Origin: Chloroflexi bacterium OHK40
Lineage (GTDB): Bacteria > Chloroflexota > Chloroflexia > Chloroflexales > Chloroflexaceae
Direction: 5' to 3'
DNA length: 64,000 nt
NCBI GenBank assembly: GCA_004367505.1
Contig: SFCB01000283.1
Coordinates: 1 to 64,000 of the forward strand
Notes under the pieces: generated by a model
What the model was told of the DNA's origin: nothing
Seen by the model: only the letters and a program-made list of their open reading frames with translations
The model's database searches: none
Made by a program: the position numbers and the translations under genes
Shown here: one piece after another, positions 26,452-36,573 of the stretch
Layout of the letters: each line of letters starts with the position of its first letter
Numbering within the stretch: position 1 is the first letter of the stretch

Positions 26452-26543
26452 AGAACCTGATTAGTCTTTACGCTTTCCCGACAACATGGGTGAGACGGCC
26501 TCCGGGCAGTTCTCGTCACGCTGGCACAGACGGCATCAGCACT

Positions 26544-28016
26544 ATGGATTGCGCCGAGGCACGACGGCTCATCGACGCGGGAATCACGCCGGGCTCCACC
26601 GACCCACGGCGGGCGGCACTGGGGTTCCACCTGGGGCGCTGCGCGGGCTGCCGCGCCTACCGGGCTAATCCGGGCGACACGGGGCTCCTGGCGGCGCTCC
26701 TGGAGGAGGCGCCACCGGCACCAGTTCCCACCACGCCTCGGCCCGTCCGGGTGGCCAGCCGCCCCGGGGCGCTGCGCCCCCTGCGGCGCGGCGAACGAGC
26801 ACCCTGGTGGCGCTACGCCCTTCTCGGCGGGCTAGCCCTGCTGGTGGCCGGCCTGGGTATGCTGGTAGGCCGGGTAGCCATGGCTGCCTATACCATCCGC
26901 GACAATCTGGCGGCTATGCAGGTCACGGCGGCGCCCTCAATCGTGCCCACCCCGGCGCTCGTGGTCCCCACCGGCCCACCGGCGACCGCGCCAACCACGT
27001 CGATCACGACGGCCCTCCCAGCCGCAGGGGTGATCGACACGCCGCCCGATAGCGGCCTGCCTGCGGGCGAGCCGCCTGCCGCCGCGCCCGTTGGGGCGCC
27101 CTCGCCAGCGCCGCTCGCGAGTGTGACGCCAGTGCGCCTGCCTGCCGTGGGCGGGCCCGCGCCCATCCCCACCCTGATGGCCACGGTCGGCGTGCTCCCG
27201 GCGGTAGCCAGCGGCAAACCGGTGAACATCCTGCTCCTCGGCAGCGACCGGCGCCCCGGTGAGAGCTGGCAGACACGATCCGACGCGATCATGGTCGTAC
27301 GGTTGGAACCGGCACGCCAGCGCGTGGCGCTGCTCTCGCTCCCCCGTGATCTGATCGTCGCCATCCCCGGCGTGGGCCAGGCGCGCATCAACGCCGCCAC
27401 CGTCTACGGCGAGATGTACCCGGAGCTCGGCGGTGGCGCGGAGTTGGCCCGCCAGACGGTGAGCGATCTGCTCGGCATCCCGATCGACCACGTCGTCCGC
27501 GCCGACTTTCACGCCTTCATCGCGGCGGTGGACACGATTGGCGGTATCGAGATCGTAGTGGAGCAGGAGCTCTACGACCCTCAGTATCCGACGATGGACT
27601 ACGGGTATATGGTCGCCCACTTCCTCCCCGGCCCTCAGCATATGGACGGCGAGACGGCCCTGATCTACAGCCGTATCCGCCACATGGACAGCGACTACGC
27701 CCGCGCCAGGCGCCAGCAGCAGGTGATCCTGGCCATTCTCGAGCGGGTGCGCAAGGAGAATGTGCTGGGCCAGGTGCAGATGCTCGCCGACCTCTCCAGC
27801 GCCCTGCGTGACGATATTCAGACCGACCTGAGCCTCGATCAGATGATTGGCCTGGCCTGGGCGTTCCGGAGCTTCTCGCCCGACCAGGTCGAGCGCTACG
27901 CCCTCGACGAGAATCTCGTGTACCCCGGCGGCATCCCCGGCGACCCCTACGCCACCCTGCCGGCCGCCGGAGCGCTGCAGCTGGTGACCAGCCAGCTGCT
28001 CAACGGCGCGCAGTAG
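26544..28016 (+). CDS. LytR-CpsA-Psr (LCP) family transferase with N-terminal Cys/His motif
   Basis: A 490-residue membrane protein. The first 40 residues contain C3, then H29-x3-C33-x2-C36, the pattern of the anti-sigma (ZAS/zf-HC2) zinc finger. A transmembrane helix lies at about 95-115, then a long Pro/Ala/Thr linker. The LCP domain occupies about 224-420, with VNILLLGSDRRPGESWQTRSDAIMVV and LSLPRDLIVAIPG. LCP enzymes attach undecaprenyl-linked polymers to peptidoglycan or other acceptors. The N-terminal zinc-finger-like motif is unusual for the family and might tether a regulator. The start at 26544 is chosen because the Cys/His motif begins directly after it. Confidence 0.85.
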   Translation: MDCAEARRLIDAGITPGSTDPRRAALGFHLGRCAGCRAYRANPGDTGLLAALLEEAPPAPVPTTPRPVRVASRPGALRPLRRGERAPWWRYALLGGLALLVAGLGMLVGRVAMAAYTIRDNLAAMQVTAAPSIVPTPALVVPTGPPATAPTTSITTALPAAGVIDTPPDSGLPAGEPPAAAPVGAPSPAPLASVTPVRLPAVGGPAPIPTLMATVGVLPAVASGKPVNILLLGSDRRPGESWQTRSDAIMVVRLEPARQRVALLSLPRDLIVAIPGVGQARINAATVYGEMYPELGGGAELARQTVSDLLGIPIDHVVRADFHAFIAAVDTIGGIEIVVEQELYDPQYPTMDYGYMVAHFLPGPQHMDGETALIYSRIRHMDSDYARARRQQQVILAILERVRKENVLGQVQMLADLSSALRDDIQTDLSLDQMIGLAWAFRSFSPDQVERYALDENLVYPGGIPGDPYATLPAAGALQLVTSQLLNGAQ

Positions 28017-28126
28017 GCGCGCGGGCGCCTCTGCTACGGTCGAGCCGCCGTCTTTCCCGGATAGACATCACGAAGCCCGCAATCGGGGAGATGACAGCCG
28101 GACGCGCCTCGTGCCTGTTGGGCGCG

Positions 28127-29194
28127 TCAGCGCCGCAGGTAGACTGCAAGCGCGTCGGGGACGGGGCGCTGCTGGCGTTGCCAGAGGGGCTGGCCACGCC
28201 AGACGGCCTGGGTCGAGGTGTCGTCGTCGCCACCGAGGGCGCTGTGGCAGCCCATGTCGCGCAGGGCCTGGGCAAACGCTACGCCCACCACCCCACTCGA
28301 GTTGGCGAGCACCAGGAAGGAACGGCCATCGGGCAACTCACCCACGCACACGGCCGTCTTGGGGTAGCCACCACTGTAGACCTTGATCCGCCAATCGAGT
28401 TGCACGAAGTCCTCGCCGAGAGGATTGAAGGGGATGAACTCGCCGCTGGGGGCGACCACCTCCGGGTTGGCCACCTTCCCCTCCCAGAGGATCACCGGGC
28501 CGCCGCCAATCGCCTGCTGGCAGCCCGCGAGCTGCTCGGCGCTGAACAGCCCGATGCTGGCGCGCTGGCTCGGGTCGATACAGAGAGCGGCGCGGCCGGC
28601 GTTCACCCGGTAGACCACCCCATCGATCACCACGCTGCCCTCGTTGGAGGTGCGCACCGCGCCGTGGAAGCCAAAGGCCATGGCCCAGAGCAACTCCATC
28701 CCCTCGCGGACGGCGTAGGGGGCAGCGGCCATCTCGGCTACGGGAGCCAGATGCTGCTGCCCATCCGTCCAGATCGTATCGCCGGTGGCATCGCTGCCGG
28801 GGGTGGCCCCGTCGGCGTTGATCACCGCCACCTGAACGGCCTCGTCCAACCGCGCGACGGCGTAGACAAGCTCGCCGCCACCGGGCATCCCCCGGCGGTA
28901 CAGTTCCACGCGGCCCCCACCGGCGCTCTCCTGGAGGGCGCTGGCGGCGTTGAAGGCGGCGAGCCGTTCGGCGGCAGGTGGGGCGGCAGGCGTCTGCGGC
29001 TGCATGGCGCCTACCAGCGGCTCGACCGCCCCCCGCAACCCCTCACCGCCCCTGGAAACCTGGGCGATCGCTGCCGGCAGCGACCAGCGCGAAGGCACGG
29101 TAGCCGGCGTCTGCACAAACTGCACGACGAGATAGACCACGGCGAAGATCGCCAGGCCCCCGAGGACAAGGTTGTACGCCGGTCGCAGGAACAT
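28127..29194 (-). CDS. membrane-anchored phosphodiester glycosidase (NAGPA-like)
   Basis: A 355-residue protein with one N-terminal membrane helix (about 8-25), a Pro/Ala linker and a C-terminal domain. The blocks VVIDGVVYRVNAG, LPDGRSFLVLANSSGVVGVAFAQALRDMGC and GGDDDTSTQ resemble the phosphodiester glycosidase family (N-acetylglucosamine-1-phosphodiester alpha-N-acetylglucosaminidase). Bacterial members act on exopolysaccharide or wall polymers outside the cell. It is convergent with the LCP gene and next to other envelope genes. Assignment rests on the C-terminal motifs only. Confidence 0.65.
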   Translation of the reverse strand: MFLRPAYNLVLGGLAIFAVVYLVVQFVQTPATVPSRWSLPAAIAQVSRGGEGLRGAVEPLVGAMQPQTPAAPPAAERLAAFNAASALQESAGGGRVELYRRGMPGGGELVYAVARLDEAVQVAVINADGATPGSDATGDTIWTDGQQHLAPVAEMAAAPYAVREGMELLWAMAFGFHGAVRTSNEGSVVIDGVVYRVNAGRAALCIDPSQRASIGLFSAEQLAGCQQAIGGGPVILWEGKVANPEVVAPSGEFIPFNPLGEDFVQLDWRIKVYSGGYPKTAVCVGELPDGRSFLVLANSSGVVGVAFAQALRDMGCHSALGGDDDTSTQAVWRGQPLWQRQQRPVPDALAVYLRR

Positions 29195-29273
29195 CGGGGC
29201 CCACGCCTCAGATCAGCCACACCGGGGAGGGCACGCTCCGCCGCCATTCTACACTCTTTTGGAGTCCGGTGGT

Positions 29274-29301
29274 AGTATAGCACATATGTTCGTATTCGCA
29301 A
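29274..29301 (-). promoter_or_regulatory. promoter of the phosphodiester glycosidase gene
   Basis: On the minus strand TTGCGA (29301-29296) and TATACT (29279-29274) are 16 bp apart. It overlaps a plus-strand candidate, TTCGCA at 29295-29300 and TATAAT at 29319-29324 (18-bp spacer), which would serve the CapA-like gene. The two divergent promoters share -35 bases. Confidence 0.5.
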
Positions 29302-29477
29302 CCCGGGCGCCAGGCCGGTATAATCGTCGCATCCAGCGCGCTCACGCACTCCCGCTGGTAGGCAGCTGCCACGGATCACTTCGCCGCCCGATCGGCGTGG
29401 GTCGCCGTTCATTCATCTCAGGACGCCTGACCCTCACCCATGCGCCGAAGGCGCGTTAGCCCCACGTGGAGGCTTCT

Positions 29478-31817
29478 ATGCCCCGCCTCGCCCTGCTGAT
29501 CGTGCTCGTTGCCGTGCTGCTGGCCGCTCCGCCTCCGGCTCTGGCCCAGCGCCCTGATGGCCTCGACCAGCCGCTCACAACTCTCAATAGGTGTGGTGCG
29601 AGCGAGGCCGGCGAGGACCACTTCACCATCGCGGCCACCGGCGACACCTTTCCCCACGAGAATATTCAGGCCGTCGGCGAGGCTCAGGGCTACGATGTGC
29701 TCTTCGACTACGTTCGCCCGTTCCTCCAGGCAGCCGACCTGGCCTACACCAACTTCGACGGCGCGATGCTCGAGGGCGCCGGCTATAGCGGCTACCCGAA
29801 CTTTAACTTTAACCCGGCCCTCGCCACTGCCCTCAAGCAGGCCGGGATCGACGTCGTTTCCACGGCCAACAACCACATCCTCGACCGGGGTCCCGAGGGG
29901 CTCGACGCCACCCTGCGGGTGCTGGAGGCCAACGGCATTCTCCAGCACGGCGCCGTGTTGAGCAGCGCCACCGAGCGCCCACCCTACACCCGCATTACCC
30001 TCAGCCGTGGCGACGCCAGTCTCAGCGTCGGGTTCATCTCCGCCACCTGGGGCACCAACGGCATCGCCGACCCGTACAACCAGGTGAATCTGCTCTACGA
30101 GTCGAACAGCTACGGCAGCCAGGGCGGTGTGCGCGCCAGTGTGCTCGAGGCGATCGCCCAGGCTGACCGCGAGACAGAGCTCGTGGTGGTGGCGGCCCAC
30201 TTCGGCTACGAGTACCAGTTCTACCCCGACCAGAGCCAGATCGACGCGGCCCGGCGCATGGCCGAGGCCGGCGCCGACGTGATCCTTGGCGCCCAGGCCC
30301 ATACCTTGCAGCCAGTAGACCTGATCGACATGGGGAGTCGCAAGAGCCTGGTGATCTACTCGCTCGCCAACTTCCTCGCCTCTCAGGGTGCCTTCCAGGC
30401 CCAATCCTACGCTGCTACCGCCACCATCTTCTACGTGGGCGTGGCCCGTAGCCCCGACGGCCAGGTGCGCGTGACCGGCTATCGCTATCTGCCCACCATC
30501 CACGTGGATGGCGACACGCGCCCCGCGCCGATCCTCCCCGGCACTGCCGACGAGGTGATCGCCCACGTGCGCACGATCCTGCGCGACCCGTCTGGCTCGC
30601 GCCAGCTCCCCCCCGATCCTCCGCCGCCCGGCACCATTGTGGCTGTCTGCGCGCCGCTCACCCTTCCAGAGGCACCCGGGCAACCCATCCCCGGCGACTT
30701 CGCCCAGCACTACGCCTCGCTCGGCGGCTTTACGCCCCGCCCCCTCACCGACGCCATCGCCGTCTTGGGCCTGCCCCTGGCGCCACCGGCCGCCGAGCCC
30801 GCCGGTGATTGCGCCACGCCGGTGCCCGTGCTCTACACCGAGCGCCAGCGCCTGGAACTGCACACCGAGCAGCCCTGGCCCTACCGCGTTACCGGCACAC
30901 AGCTTGGCGCCCATGCGTTTGGCCTGCGCTACCCCGGTGTCGAGACCACGCGCCGCACCGATCTCGCCGCAGCCGACGCCTTCGCCGATACGCGATTCCG
31001 TACGTTCTACGAGCAGTACGGCGGCCTCGATATCTTCGGCTACCCGATCTCCGGCGCCCTGAGCGAAGACCACCCGGAGACGGGGGTGCCGACGACGGTG
31101 CAGTACTTCGAGCGCGCCCGCTTCGAACTGGCCCCCGATGCTCAACCCGGCGCGCCGCTCACCGACCAGGTACGCCTGGGACTGCTGGGCCGCGAGTTGC
31201 GCGAGGCGGGCGGTGCGGCGGCACTCTGCGGCGCGGCGGCTAGCTCCGTCGCCGCCGAGACGATGGGCGTGGGAAGCCCGGACAACACCCGGCCCACGTC
31301 CGTCCCCAGCGATGACCTGGCGCTGGTAGCCGATCTGCTCGCCCAGGCAGCCGGCGGGGTGGCGTGGTGGATTCCCACCCTGGCCGTGGTGGCCCTGGTC
31401 ATTGCCATCCTGGCCCTTTTGAGCTTCGCCGTGGCCGACTGGCGCGCCTACCAGCGGCGCGGCAGCCGCCGGGGCTACCGGCGCCGCCGGACGGCCTACG
31501 AGCGCTTCGGTGGGGCGCCTGTTCCCGGCTCGGGCGCCAGGGAGCTAGCGCGAGAACCAGGCACGACGAACCGGAGCACCACAAGCGAACGGCGTGCTGA
31601 CGCGCTCAATCCCTCGCCTGACGAGCCGTTCGTTCCGGACCATGCGCTGGAAGAGCGTGGGAACGGGGCGACGCGGAGCGGAGGGTCGGCCCGCCGGGTG
31701 CCGGAGTCCGAGCGCGGGATGGCGGGCGATGGGGCACCCGGGCCGCAGGGCGGGGGAGCGGGCCAGGCAGGCGCCGACGACGATGATGAGCTGCTGCGGA
31801 TTCTCCTCGGGCAGTGA
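29478..31817 (+). CDS. CapA-family (poly-gamma-glutamate synthesis-like) protein with C-terminal membrane anchor
   Basis: A 779-residue secreted protein. A signal peptide ([19 protein letters not shown]) precedes a PGA_cap metallophosphatase-like domain (about 45-310): [49 protein letters not shown] and [17 protein letters not shown] second region (about 470-580) contains [19 protein letters not shown] and [10 protein letters not shown], a repeat domain common in secreted Chloroflexota proteins. A transmembrane helix (about 630-655) and a basic, disordered tail follow. The tail contains a dispersed repeat (31544-31609) read in frame. CapA is linked to poly-gamma-glutamate export or capsule; the substrate here is unknown. 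The start at 29478 follows GGAGG. Confidence 0.85.
31544..31609. repeat. TAGCGC repeat family member inside a coding region
   Basis: The tract begins CTAGCGCGAGAACC and contains GGAGCACC, GGCGTGCTGACGCGCTCAA. It matches the 60-bp repeat at 53886-53945 in order and orientation. Here it lies in the disordered C-terminal tail of the CapA-like gene and is read in frame, with its TAG out of frame. Boundaries are approximate. Confidence 0.55.
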
Positions 31818-31890: not shown

Positions 31891-33996
31891 CTACCGCAGC
31901 GCCTCGCCGAGCGTGGTGGGGGTAAGCCCCATGGCGGCAAGCTGATCGAGGTAGCCGGGGAGAGCCTCAACAGTCGCCTGGCGCGCGTGGAGCAGGAGGA
32001 TCCCGCCCTGTGCCGCAGCGGGATCGGCGGCGGCCCGGGCCAGCCAGGCGGGCGCGGCGTAGTCATCGGCGCTCCAGTGGGCGGCCAGGTAGCCGCTCCG
32101 CGCCGCAAGCTCCACCAGTTCGGGCGTGAAGTCGCCGTAGGGGAAGCGGAAGAAGGGGCGCGGGCTGCGGCCGGCGGCGCTGGCGATGGCCTGCTCGGCG
32201 CGGGCGATCTCTTCGATCGCCCCCTCGGCGCTCAGCCCCGAAAAGGCCGGGTGAGTCTGGGACAGGTTACCGATCTCGTGGCCAGCGGCCAGGATCGCCT
32301 GGACGGCCTGAGGATACTGCTCGGCCCAACTCCCGGTGATGAAGAACGTCGCCTGCGTGGATCGCTCGGCCAGGAGATCGAGGATGGCGTAGACCGGCGC
32401 CTCATCGCCATTGATGTCGAAGGTGAGGGCGACCGCCGGCCGGGCAGGGTTCGCGCGCTCAATCAGCTGCGCCGGGGGGAGGGCCTCACCGTCGCTGTAG
32501 AGCGGCACCACCAGCGGGCGGCCCGGCCACAGCGGCGCGCCGGGCGGCAGCGCGTTCACGGCAGCAAGCGCCTCGGCGTCGCTGCCGGCCCGATCAGCAA
32601 TTGCGGCGAGCGTATCGCCGGCCTGGGCAACGTAGGTGGTGTAGCTCCGAGGGCGGGGAATAGAGGCACTGGCTGGCGCCGGAGCGGCTTCGAGCGTCAG
32701 CTCCACCTCGTCCACGGGTGGTGGCGCCTCACCGGGGAGCACCCGGCTGACCATCACGGCCAGCACGAGCAGGGCAACCCCGAGGGCGATCAGCTTCGGG
32801 CGCGCCACGCCCGTGGGCGTAGCCAGCCGCGCACGCAGCGCCGGAGCGCCCACAGTGGTTGTGGCGACCACAAAGGAGCGGGCGGTAGCCAGGGCCCTGG
32901 CTGCGCGGTCGCTCGTGGCCTGCCGTGGGCGCAGCGGCGTCCCGACGGGCAGGGGGGGGCCAGGCTCATCCCCCTGCTCTGGCAGAGAGCCGGCCCGAAC
33001 AGCGCCGGAAGCGGGCCGCAGCGCAAAGAGTTGTTCGCCGCCGGGCGCCAGCCAGACGCAGGGCGCGCCCCAGGAGCCATTGGCGCCGGCCAGGGCGGCG
33101 CGCCCGTCAGTAGCGGCGAGATCGACCGGATCGCCCTGAGCGATAGCGCTGTAGCACGGCCCGCTAAAGGCCGCCGCCAGCGCCGCATCGAGCCCGCCGA
33201 GGGCCACGGTGGCAAGGCCGAGGCGCCCATGGACGGTAGCCGCCACATCGACCACTGCGGCTGCGTCGGCCTCGAGCCCGGCGGCGATCGTCACGAAGCG
33301 CAGGGCGGGCGCCTCGGCGAGGATACCGGCGAGGCCGGCGCCATCGAGGCGCTAGCCGAGCAAGAGGCGCGCCGCCGAAGCAGCACCGCTCGCATCGGCG
33401 GCCACGAGGTGCAGCAAGTGGCAGGGCTCCTCGGCGAGGGCCTCGCGCAGGGCCAGCGGGTCGGCGTCGCGGAGGAGATCGACCACCAGGCTCCCTTCAC
33501 GCACAAGCGGGCCGAGAGCGCGGCCGAGGGGCTCAGCGGCGTCGGCAGCACCGGGAGCGCAGGCGATCAGCAGGCGCAGCGGGCCTGCCACAGCCAGCGG
33601 CGGGGCCGGGGCCACCCGCCCGGCCCGCACCAGGGTGTAGTCCTCGCGGATGGCGGGGCGCCAGGGTGACTCACGGCCCAGAGTCGCCAGTTCCCAGGGC
33701 AGGTTGGCCAACTCGGGCGGCGCCACCTCCAGCTGGATCTGCACCCGGGCGCCGGCCTCGTCGGCGCCACGGGCCACATCGATCAGGAGCTGGCGCACCG
33801 GCGCGGGGAAGAGCGCCCGGCCCAGCGCCAGCCCAAGGGCTTCGGGCGCGCCAGGCAGCGGAGGCAACTCCAGGGCAGCCTCGGCGCTGCGCCCGGCCGC
33901 CACCGCGCGCAGCGCATAGCCGGCGCTCCCGCGCCCGCCCACACTCAGCTGAAACGGCACCACCGCTGCCCGCATAAACTCCTGACGCATGCCCAT
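31891..33996 (-). pseudogene. CHAT-like / LysM / polysaccharide deacetylase protein split by an in-frame TAG
   Basis: Two frame-matched open frames (33996-33352 and 33351-31891) are separated only by a TAG at 33354-33352. Together they encode about 700 residues. The N-terminus looks like a CHAT (caspase-like) domain: ELANLPWELATLGRESPWRP, LRLLIACAPGAADAAEPL, CHLLHLVAA before the stop, and WGAPCVWLAPGGEQLF after it. The usual catalytic His (HxGHG) reads HLVAAD and the usual Cys position reads AAG, so protease activity is doubtful. A membrane helix, a LysM domain (YVAQAGDTLAAIADRAGSD) and a NodB deacetylase domain follow. In the deacetylase, TFDDG reads TFDING and the first metal-site His is Leu. 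It could be a pseudogene, a readthrough product or an assembly error. An internal start at GTG 33294 would give a 467-residue LysM-deacetylase alone. Confidence 0.75.
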
Positions 33997-34068: not shown

Positions 34069-36573
34069 TCAGGAGTTTTGCGGGGCAACCAGCACCGGTT
34101 CCGATCGATCCTCGATCGCTAGCCAGAGACCCGGCAGCAGTTCCCGCATTCCCTTGCGCGGCCCGGACTCCCAGGCCAGGGTTGTGGCCCGGCTCACCGA
34201 GAGGATATCGGCCGCTGCGGCTTCCAGCATGGCCCGCAGCCCCCCGTCGGCACAGGCGATGGTGAGGCCGGCCAGGGGCGCGCCGAGCGAGCGGCCCCGT
34301 GCCGTCTTGTGGCGGCGCACGGCGCCCGCGAGGGCCAGCAGCGCCGCGCCCGCCGCCTCGGCCCCGCTCTCGCGCAGCGCTGGCTCAGGCTGCGGCCAGT
34401 CCGCCCGATGGATCGAGCCGCGCCCGGGGAAGAGCAGCCCGTAGAGCTCATCGGTGACGTGGGGCAGCACCGGCGCCAGCAGCCGCAGCTGGGCATCCAG
34501 AGCCAGCGCGATCGTGGCTCGCGCCGAATCGCGCGCCGCACCCGCGCCGTCGTAGAGCCGGCCCTTGGCCAATTCCAGGTACTGGTCGCAAAAGATCCCC
34601 CAGAAGAATCGTTCGGCCAGTTCCAGCCCGCCCGCGTAGTCGTAGCTCTGCCAGCGCTCACTAGCCTCGGCGATCACGCCCTGGAGCGCCGAGAGGAGCC
34701 ACCTGTCAGTGGGAACGCTCACCATGCCGTGCAGCAGTTGCGAGGCGTTCTGAGGCGCTTGCGCCGCAGGTTCCAGGTGCGCGGCGCAGAGGCGCGCCGC
34801 GTTCCAGAGCTTCGTCACCAGCCGGCGCCCCTGGCGCATGGTCTCCTCGGTGAGGGGCTGGTCGCCGCCGAGGGTGGCCCGGCAGGCCCAGTAGCGCACG
34901 GCATCGGCTCCGTGGCGCTCGATCAGTTCCAGAGGCAGCACAGGGGCGTTGCCCCTGGATTTGCTCAGCTTGCGCCCGGATGGATCAAGGGCATGGCCGG
35001 AGAGCATCACCGTTTCCCAGGGCACCTCACCGAAGTGAAACAGCGATTTGGCGATGGTGTAGAAGGTCCAGGTCCGGATGATCTCGTGGGCCTGGGGGCG
35101 CAGCTGCATAGGGAAGAGCCGCCGGTAGCGCTCGGGGGCCTCCAGCATGCCAGTGGCAATCTGCGGGCTCATCGAGGAGGTGGCCCAGGTGTCCATCACA
35201 TCCTCGTCGGGCCGCAGGTCGCTCGATCCGCAGGCGCATGCCCGTGGTGGCACGTCGCTGAGCGGGTCCACCGGTAGCTGGGTTTCATCGGCGAGTACCG
35301 TCGCGCCGCAGCGGGCGCAGTGCCAGGCGGGAAAGGGCACGCCGTAGAAGCGCTGGCGCGAGATACACCAGTCGTAGCTCAGGCCGTTCACCCATTGCTC
35401 GTAGCGGGCGCGCATATGGGCCGGGCGCCACTGGATGCGCCGGCCCGCCTCAAGCAGCGCCTCCCTGGCATCGAGGATGCGCACGAACCACTGGCGCGTC
35501 TCCAGAACCTCCAGGGGCGTGCCGCAGCGCTCATGGACGCGAACGGTCTGCTCGGCAAGGTACTGGCCGGTGAGCGCGCCAGCCGCCCGTAGATCGTCCA
35601 GAATGCGTGCCCGTGCCGTGGCCAGGCTCATCCCCGCATAGGGCCCGCCGGCCTCGCTGAGCTGGCCCTGGCGCCCGACGAGGGGGATCAGCGGCAGCTG
35701 GTGATCGCGCCACCACTGCACGTCCGTCGCGTCGCCAAAGGTACAGCACATCACGGCCCCGCTCCCTTTGCGCGGGTCCACCGCTGCATCGGCCAGGATG
35801 GGGACGCGCCGACCGAAGAGAGGCACGCTGGCCAGGGCGCCGATCAGTGCCGTGTAGCGCTCGTCGTCCGGGTGAACGAAGACGGCCACACAGGCCGGGA
35901 GCAACTCGGGGCGGGTAGTGGCGATCGGAAGGACTGGGGGCTGGGGGCCGGGGGCCGTGGAGCTGTCGAGGGCGAAGGCCAGCGTATAGAACGTGGTCTC
36001 ACGCGCGGCGTCCTCCATCTCGGCCTGGGCCACGGCCGTCTCGCACTCGACACACCAGGGGTTGGGAGCCTGAGCGCGGTAGATCCTCCCCTTGCGGTAC
36101 AAATCGAGGAAGGACCACTGGGAGGTGCGCTGAGCGAGGGGGCTGATCGTCGAGTAGCGCTGGCTCCAGTCGACACTCATGCCGAGGCGCCGCCAGAACT
36201 CCTCAAAGCGGGCCTCCACCTCGGCCGAGGTCTCCAGGCACGCCCGAACGAAGGCGGCGCGACCGATGTCGCGGGCCCGGATGCCACGGCTGCGCTCGAC
36301 GTAGCGCTCTGTGGGCAGCCCGTTATCGTCGAAACCGAAGGGGTAAAAGATGCTGCGGCCCTGCATCCGCCAGAAACGGACCATGGCCTCGGCCTGGACG
36401 TAGGAATAGACGTGGCCGATATGGATCTCGCCCGAGACGGTGGGGGGTGGGGTGTCGATCGCGAACACTGGCCGGGGGTCGGCCGGGTCGAAGCGGTAGA
36501 GAGCGGTGGCGGCCCAGGCGGCCTGGAGGCGCGGCTCGGCCTCGGCCGGGTCGAAGCTGCTGGGGAAGCCCAC
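34069..36573 (-). CDS. valS: valyl-tRNA synthetase
   Basis: An 834-residue class I synthetase. The HIGH-type motif occurs in PPPTVSGEIHIGHVYSYVQ (about residues 42-60). DDNGLPTERYVERSRG shows the valine-type active-site loop of the compact (archaeal- and Rickettsia-like) ValRS group. The KMSKS-type loop reads DPSGRKLSKSRGN. A zinc-knuckle-like segment CARCGATVLADE...CACGSSD lies near 415-450. The editing (CP1) domain is between them. The protein lacks the long C-terminal coiled-coil of E. coli-type ValRS and is accordingly shorter than about 950 residues. The start is ATG 36573. Confidence 0.93.
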   Translation of the reverse strand: MGFPSSFDPAEAEPRLQAAWAATALYRFDPADPRPVFAIDTPPPTVSGEIHIGHVYSYVQAEAMVRFWRMQGRSIFYPFGFDDNGLPTERYVERSRGIRARDIGRAAFVRACLETSAEVEARFEEFWRRLGMSVDWSQRYSTISPLAQRTSQWSFLDLYRKGRIYRAQAPNPWCVECETAVAQAEMEDAARETTFYTLAFALDSSTAPGPQPPVLPIATTRPELLPACVAVFVHPDDERYTALIGALASVPLFGRRVPILADAAVDPRKGSGAVMCCTFGDATDVQWWRDHQLPLIPLVGRQGQLSEAGGPYAGMSLATARARILDDLRAAGALTGQYLAEQTVRVHERCGTPLEVLETRQWFVRILDAREALLEAGRRIQWRPAHMRARYEQWVNGLSYDWCISRQRFYGVPFPAWHCARCGATVLADETQLPVDPLSDVPPRACACGSSDLRPDEDVMDTWATSSMSPQIATGMLEAPERYRRLFPMQLRPQAHEIIRTWTFYTIAKSLFHFGEVPWETVMLSGHALDPSGRKLSKSRGNAPVLPLELIERHGADAVRYWACRATLGGDQPLTEETMRQGRRLVTKLWNAARLCAAHLEPAAQAPQNASQLLHGMVSVPTDRWLLSALQGVIAEASERWQSYDYAGGLELAERFFWGIFCDQYLELAKGRLYDGAGAARDSARATIALALDAQLRLLAPVLPHVTDELYGLLFPGRGSIHRADWPQPEPALRESGAEAAGAALLALAGAVRRHKTARGRSLGAPLAGLTIACADGGLRAMLEAAAADILSVSRATTLAWESGPRKGMRELLPGLWLAIEDRSEPVLVAPQNS

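Follow-up and report, generated by a model that had tools for sequence, protein, structure and literature searches.

CHAT domains are familiar mainly as proteases, of which several belong to defence systems. A solved structure, 8TL0, is that of a SAVED-CHAT protease (PMC11417357). The motifs of the CE4 (NodB) deacetylases have been defined, including the TFDD of motif 1 with its base Asp and metal Asp, and the NodB proteins BA0330 and BA0331 are inactive as deacetylases and bind to the wall, which they stabilise (PMC4505593); Ba0150 (4M1B) is a metal-free NodB protein (PMC6115787, PMC10967932). A literature search returned no report combining a CHAT domain, LysM and a polysaccharide deacetylase, and none linking a CHAT domain with Chloroflexus; a single protein with a CHAT-like domain, a membrane helix (TM), LysM and NodB appears to be undescribed.

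Such a gene, interrupted by one stop codon, is found in Chloroflexi bacterium OHK40, within the 64,000-nucleotide stretch of contig SFCB01000283.1 that was analysed here (the window). Positions 33996-31891 of the minus strand form a single frame of 701 codons plus a terminal stop, interrupted by just one further stop. As about nine stops are expected from base composition in 694 codons of this frame, its being open is not a matter of chance, and the codon-position GC of the halves before and after the stop resembles that of other genes in the window. A preliminary description had reported two frames in register with one TAG between them and a CHAT signature straddling it; translation of the frame bears out the first point and alignment with intact relatives the second. 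The ATG at 33975 is the likely start of the broken CHAT-like gene, as judged by a start scan. In reading order, the features of the frame are:

33979..33983 (-), Shine-Dalgarno sequence AGGAG, 3 nt 5' of the ATG (start scan)
33973..33975 (-), likeliest start codon, ATG (MRAAVVPFQLS...; start scan, relatives begin nearby)
33355..33975 (-), N-terminal part of the CHAT-like domain, pre-stop, 207 aa (sub-cut-off Pfam CHAT, 8TL0 profile match, orthologues)
33352..33354 (-), internal in-frame TAG (translation)
33025..33351 (-), C-terminal part of the CHAT-like domain, post-stop, ending at EQLF (alignment with intact relatives)
32740..32793 (-), single membrane helix LIALGVALLVLAVMVSRV, preceded by basic residues (read from the sequence, position conserved in relatives)
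32503..32634 (-), LysM domain (PF01476, E 1.2e-7)
31894..32451 (-), NodB/CE4 deacetylase-like domain (PF01522, E 5.7e-28, Pfam match 32451-32086)
32410..32424 (-), CE4 motif 1, TFDIN here and TFDIE in relatives (alignment)
32263..32265 (-), Leu codon at the first metal-ligand His of CE4 motif 2, NHSxxH in relatives (H810L, alignment)
31891..31893 (-), terminal stop TAG of the same frame (translation)

The pre-stop part of the CHAT-like domain is up to 74% identical to its orthologues and scores 19.8 bits (E 6e-4) against Pfam CHAT (PF12770), under the cut-off of 24; only 2 of 16 family members match PF12770 at E<=0.01, the best at 4.5e-8. A profile of the relatives' CHAT-like domains matches one solved structure, 8TL0 (E 1.8e-8, positions 130-292). 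Neither the catalytic His nor the catalytic Cys stands at its aligned position in any family member, in the alignment or in the 8TL0 profile, and by its residues the N-terminal domain of the family is CHAT-like and predicted not to be a protease by known chemistry. A single-sequence structure model had a mean pLDDT of 41, too poor for comparison with the caspase-like fold. An anti-phage defence protein was also considered and rejected, as PADLOC gave no match.

Both domains of the tail clear their Pfam cut-offs, LysM with 32 bits against 20.9 and Polysacc_deac_1 (PF01522) with 97.8 against 23.1. The nearest NCBIfam model of the NodB domain is PdaB (TIGR02764) at 125.7 bits, below its equivalog cut-off of 237.4, and the best PDB matches are the putative deacetylases 6HPA, 6HM9 and 7BKF, two of which have a variant motif 1; 4M1B was also matched. 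The metal Asp of motif 1 (TFDD) is Ile in every tail-bearing member, the base Asp being retained, and the relatives also keep both motif-2 His, RFPYG and the motif-5 His. Two changes are private to the OHK40 copy: Leu for the first motif-2 His, and E760N (alignment numbering). The Glu of TFDIE might substitute in metal binding; this residue is Asn in the OHK40 copy. The preliminary description had taken the altered catalytic pair and the altered metal site together. As judged from the alignment, the absent CHAT dyad and the Asp-to-Ile change of motif 1 are family-wide and not damage to the OHK40 copy, and these had not been separated from the private His-to-Leu change of motif 2.

Relatives were sought by whole-genome searches of 40 genomes, in which each half was queried separately, and then in 300 genomes of the phylum. 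It had been suggested that an uninterrupted orthologue be looked for, and that the fusion would be an artefact if the domains stood apart in all relatives. The same uninterrupted frame, of 707-751 aa, is present in eight relatives, G004, G019 and G254 (one genus), G020, G318, G030, G036 and G039, two of which were contributed by the wider search of 300 genomes; the fusion is genuine. In relatives with both halves joined, the position of the stop is occupied by a sense codon. The family is one-copy and is found mainly in families f1 and f4 of the order. A further set of genomes carries the CHAT-like domain and the membrane helix with no tail: G003, G018, G290, G012, G023, G022, G005, G096, G270, G009, G021, G232, G164, G262, G148 and G027. 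Their frames (loci L053-L057, L059-L062, L121-L125, L127 and L128) are of 399-494 aa and terminate in a short proline-rich tail; G011 is also tail-less, but its gene runs into the contig end. Tailed and tail-less forms occur together in genus g6, and at least four gains or losses of the tail are required on the CHAT tree; the tree of the LysM-NodB tail is weakly resolved and groups the same genera. The simplest reading, not proven, would be that the tail is ancestral and was lost several times. It is also worth mentioning two loci of other structure: in L049:5997-8218 (G006:C237), a second interrupted fusion, a frameshift just 5' of the helix cuts LysM-NodB off from the CHAT-like part, and in L063:6498-8009 (G013:C114) a non-CHAT N-terminal part is followed by a LysM-NodB tail that shares about 48% identity with that of OHK40.

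Evolutionary rates on the OHK40 branch (G000) were expressed as ratios to the path of the sister genus, on a fixed topology and with bootstrap. The ratio is 0.54 (0.32-1.05) for the pre-stop CHAT part, 1.13 (0.44-3.05) for the rest of the CHAT-like domain and 2.02 (1.33-3.07) for the LysM-NodB tail. At otherwise invariant columns the OHK40 copy has private changes at 1 of 51 pre-stop positions versus 16 of 89 in the tail (Fisher p 0.006), with the first motif-2 metal His among the tail positions. Compared in this way, G020 and G006 show no significant difference between the two parts (p 1.0 and 0.5). The codon model gave an omega on the OHK40 branch of 0.04 for the pre-stop part and 0.06 for the tail, both far below 1 (for the tail, 2dlnL 28 against omega=1); these figures are rough, the estimate for the C-terminal CHAT part being without sensible convergence (branch length 33). 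Since the omega of the tail on this branch is well below 1, the loss, if any, would be recent. Taken together, the rates, the private changes and the omega values suggest that selection acted on the gene along most of the OHK40 branch, that its tail diverged and that the stop is recent.

With intact orthologues in relatives and a disabling change of its own, the OHK40 copy answers to the description of a pseudogene, and the explanation judged best, and held to be probable, is that it is a recently inactivated version of a conserved transmembrane pseudo-CHAT/LysM-NodB gene. The nonsense TAG inside the CHAT-like domain would end translation at about 207 aa, and because this is before the helix, no membrane-anchored LysM-NodB protein would be made; the 207-residue product would be incomplete, devoid of a membrane anchor and most likely non-functional. 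The loss would be recent, as there is no other stop or frameshift and the codons point to purifying selection over the branch, along which the OHK40 tail evolved faster and lost a metal ligand. Several points weigh against a recent inactivation: the excess of changes in the tail, compared with the tails of G020 and G006 together, reaches only p 0.08; the omega of the OHK40 branch shows no significant rise over background in a codon model whose synonymous sites are near saturation (more than 2 changes per codon); the tail may have diverged faster for functional reasons unconnected to the stop; and the TAG itself could stem from the assembly or be polymorphic.

The codon replaced by the TAG bears on whether the stop is real. 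In every f1 relative read the column is Arg, encoded by CGN, and outside f1 the residue varies. No CGN codon reaches TAG by one change, at least two being needed, so that one miscalled base in the usual codon would not suffice. Rather unlikely as the source of the TAG is a mistake in assembly or sequencing, or a minor strain's allele taken into the consensus, with the gene intact in the living population. Such an origin would suit a lone lesion in an otherwise clean frame, an assembly in 301 contigs with 3.5% contamination, and purifying selection over the OHK40 branch, but not the distance of the f1 codons from TAG, the unbroken alignment of the neighbouring genes, or the faster change of the post-stop tail and its loss of a His that is invariant elsewhere.

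OHK40 uses TAG as a regular stop codon. The genome encodes RF1, above the curated cut-off, 11 of the 22 genes in the window terminate in TAG, the commonest stop there, and none of 46 tRNA matches has the CTA anticodon (CUA); a change of genetic code or suppression of TAG was rejected on these grounds. An internal restart was likewise rejected, the start scan having found no Shine-Dalgarno-led start between the TAG and the membrane helix. That readthrough or restart still yields a full-length protein or a separate membrane LysM-NodB protein, as the 486 open codons after the stop and their omega far below 1 might be taken to suggest, is thus very improbable; no suppressor-type tRNA or suitable start is at hand, and a conserved stop is absent in all the relatives aligned. 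Hardly any credence can be given to two neighbouring genes separate from the outset, of which the many relatives with CHAT-TM alone, without the LysM-NodB tail, might be reminiscent, as the alignment of intact orthologues refutes it: the tail-less relatives still join the CHAT-like domain and the helix in one frame, and no relative is split inside the CHAT domain, whereas the whole fusion is present in eight.

The surroundings of the broken gene are partly shared with relatives. A cell-envelope cluster of LCP, NAGPA-like and PGA_cap genes (26490-31817) adjoins it, consisting of:

29466..31817 (+), convergent neighbour, PGA_cap (CapA-like) protein, syntenic in G004 and G019
28127..29194 (-), NAGPA phosphodiester glycosidase-like protein, syntenic in G004, G019, G254 and G006
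26490..28016 (+), LytR-CpsA-Psr (LCP) protein, syntenic in G004, G019, G254 and G006

The CapA-like, NAGPA-like, LCP and peptidase neighbours are common to the OHK40 window, G004 and G019, and the NAGPA-like, LCP and peptidase neighbours to the OHK40 window, G254 and G006. On the other side, 93 bases upstream and on the same strand, lies a gene for a class I tRNA synthetase (ValS-like, 834 aa, 34069-36573), which is not beside the family gene in the relatives' loci read. No replacement paralogue was found in the OHK40 genome, only distant deacetylases of 244-254 aa and a LysM protein; a scan of genome contigs gave a single distant deacetylase.

In its full form the protein would be a single-pass membrane protein, with its N-terminus inside and its C-terminus outside the cell, since there is no signal peptide and basic residues precede the helix. 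The dyad-less CHAT-like domain would then be cytoplasmic, a binding or scaffold module for a cytoplasmic partner. The LysM peptidoglycan-binding domain and the CE4/NodB domain without the usual motif-1 metal Asp would lie outside, where LysM would fasten the outer part to peptidoglycan. The protein may link a partner within the cell to its wall, or act on the wall glycan. At the level of the family, none of whose members has the CHAT dyad, the scaffold or binding role put forward in the preliminary description is plausible. It does not fit the OHK40 allele, which would stop inside the CHAT-like domain before the helix. A more far-reaching proposal, offered tentatively as a possibility short of an even chance, is that of a transmembrane scaffold in which a dead CHAT-like domain inside is tied to LysM-NodB outside, perhaps signalling between the partner and the wall, with a tail that was lost repeatedly and OHK40 caught in mid-loss. 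The broken copy itself is ordinary. The break in OHK40, the frameshifted G006 and the many tail-less relatives suggest that LysM-NodB is dispensable and that CHAT-TM is retained, and the conservation across the order of a dyad-less CHAT-like domain, fused through one membrane helix to wall modules, hints at a use of the fold that is linked to the envelope and not proteolytic.

In comparison with the CHAT-domain proteases (PF12770; SAVED-CHAT 8TL0), the family shares profile similarity over about 160 positions and retains the hydrophobic HxLHxI core, but has other residues at the catalytic His (GHG) and Cys (NAC); it also differs from proteases such as 8TL0 in being membrane-anchored and without a SAVED or TPR domain. 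With the CE4/NodB deacetylases, PdaB-like (TIGR02764), it has in common a NodB domain recognised by sequence (E 6e-28); it differs from them in having TFDIE in place of TFDD, in falling below the PdaB equivalog cut-off and in combining NodB with LysM, a membrane helix and a CHAT-like domain in one protein, and the OHK40 copy additionally is without the first motif-2 His. The order also has other LysM-NodB proteins, of about 335-390 aa and common in the searched relatives, in which LysM precedes NodB; they are 36-39% identical, but show no CHAT-like match and are separate genes.
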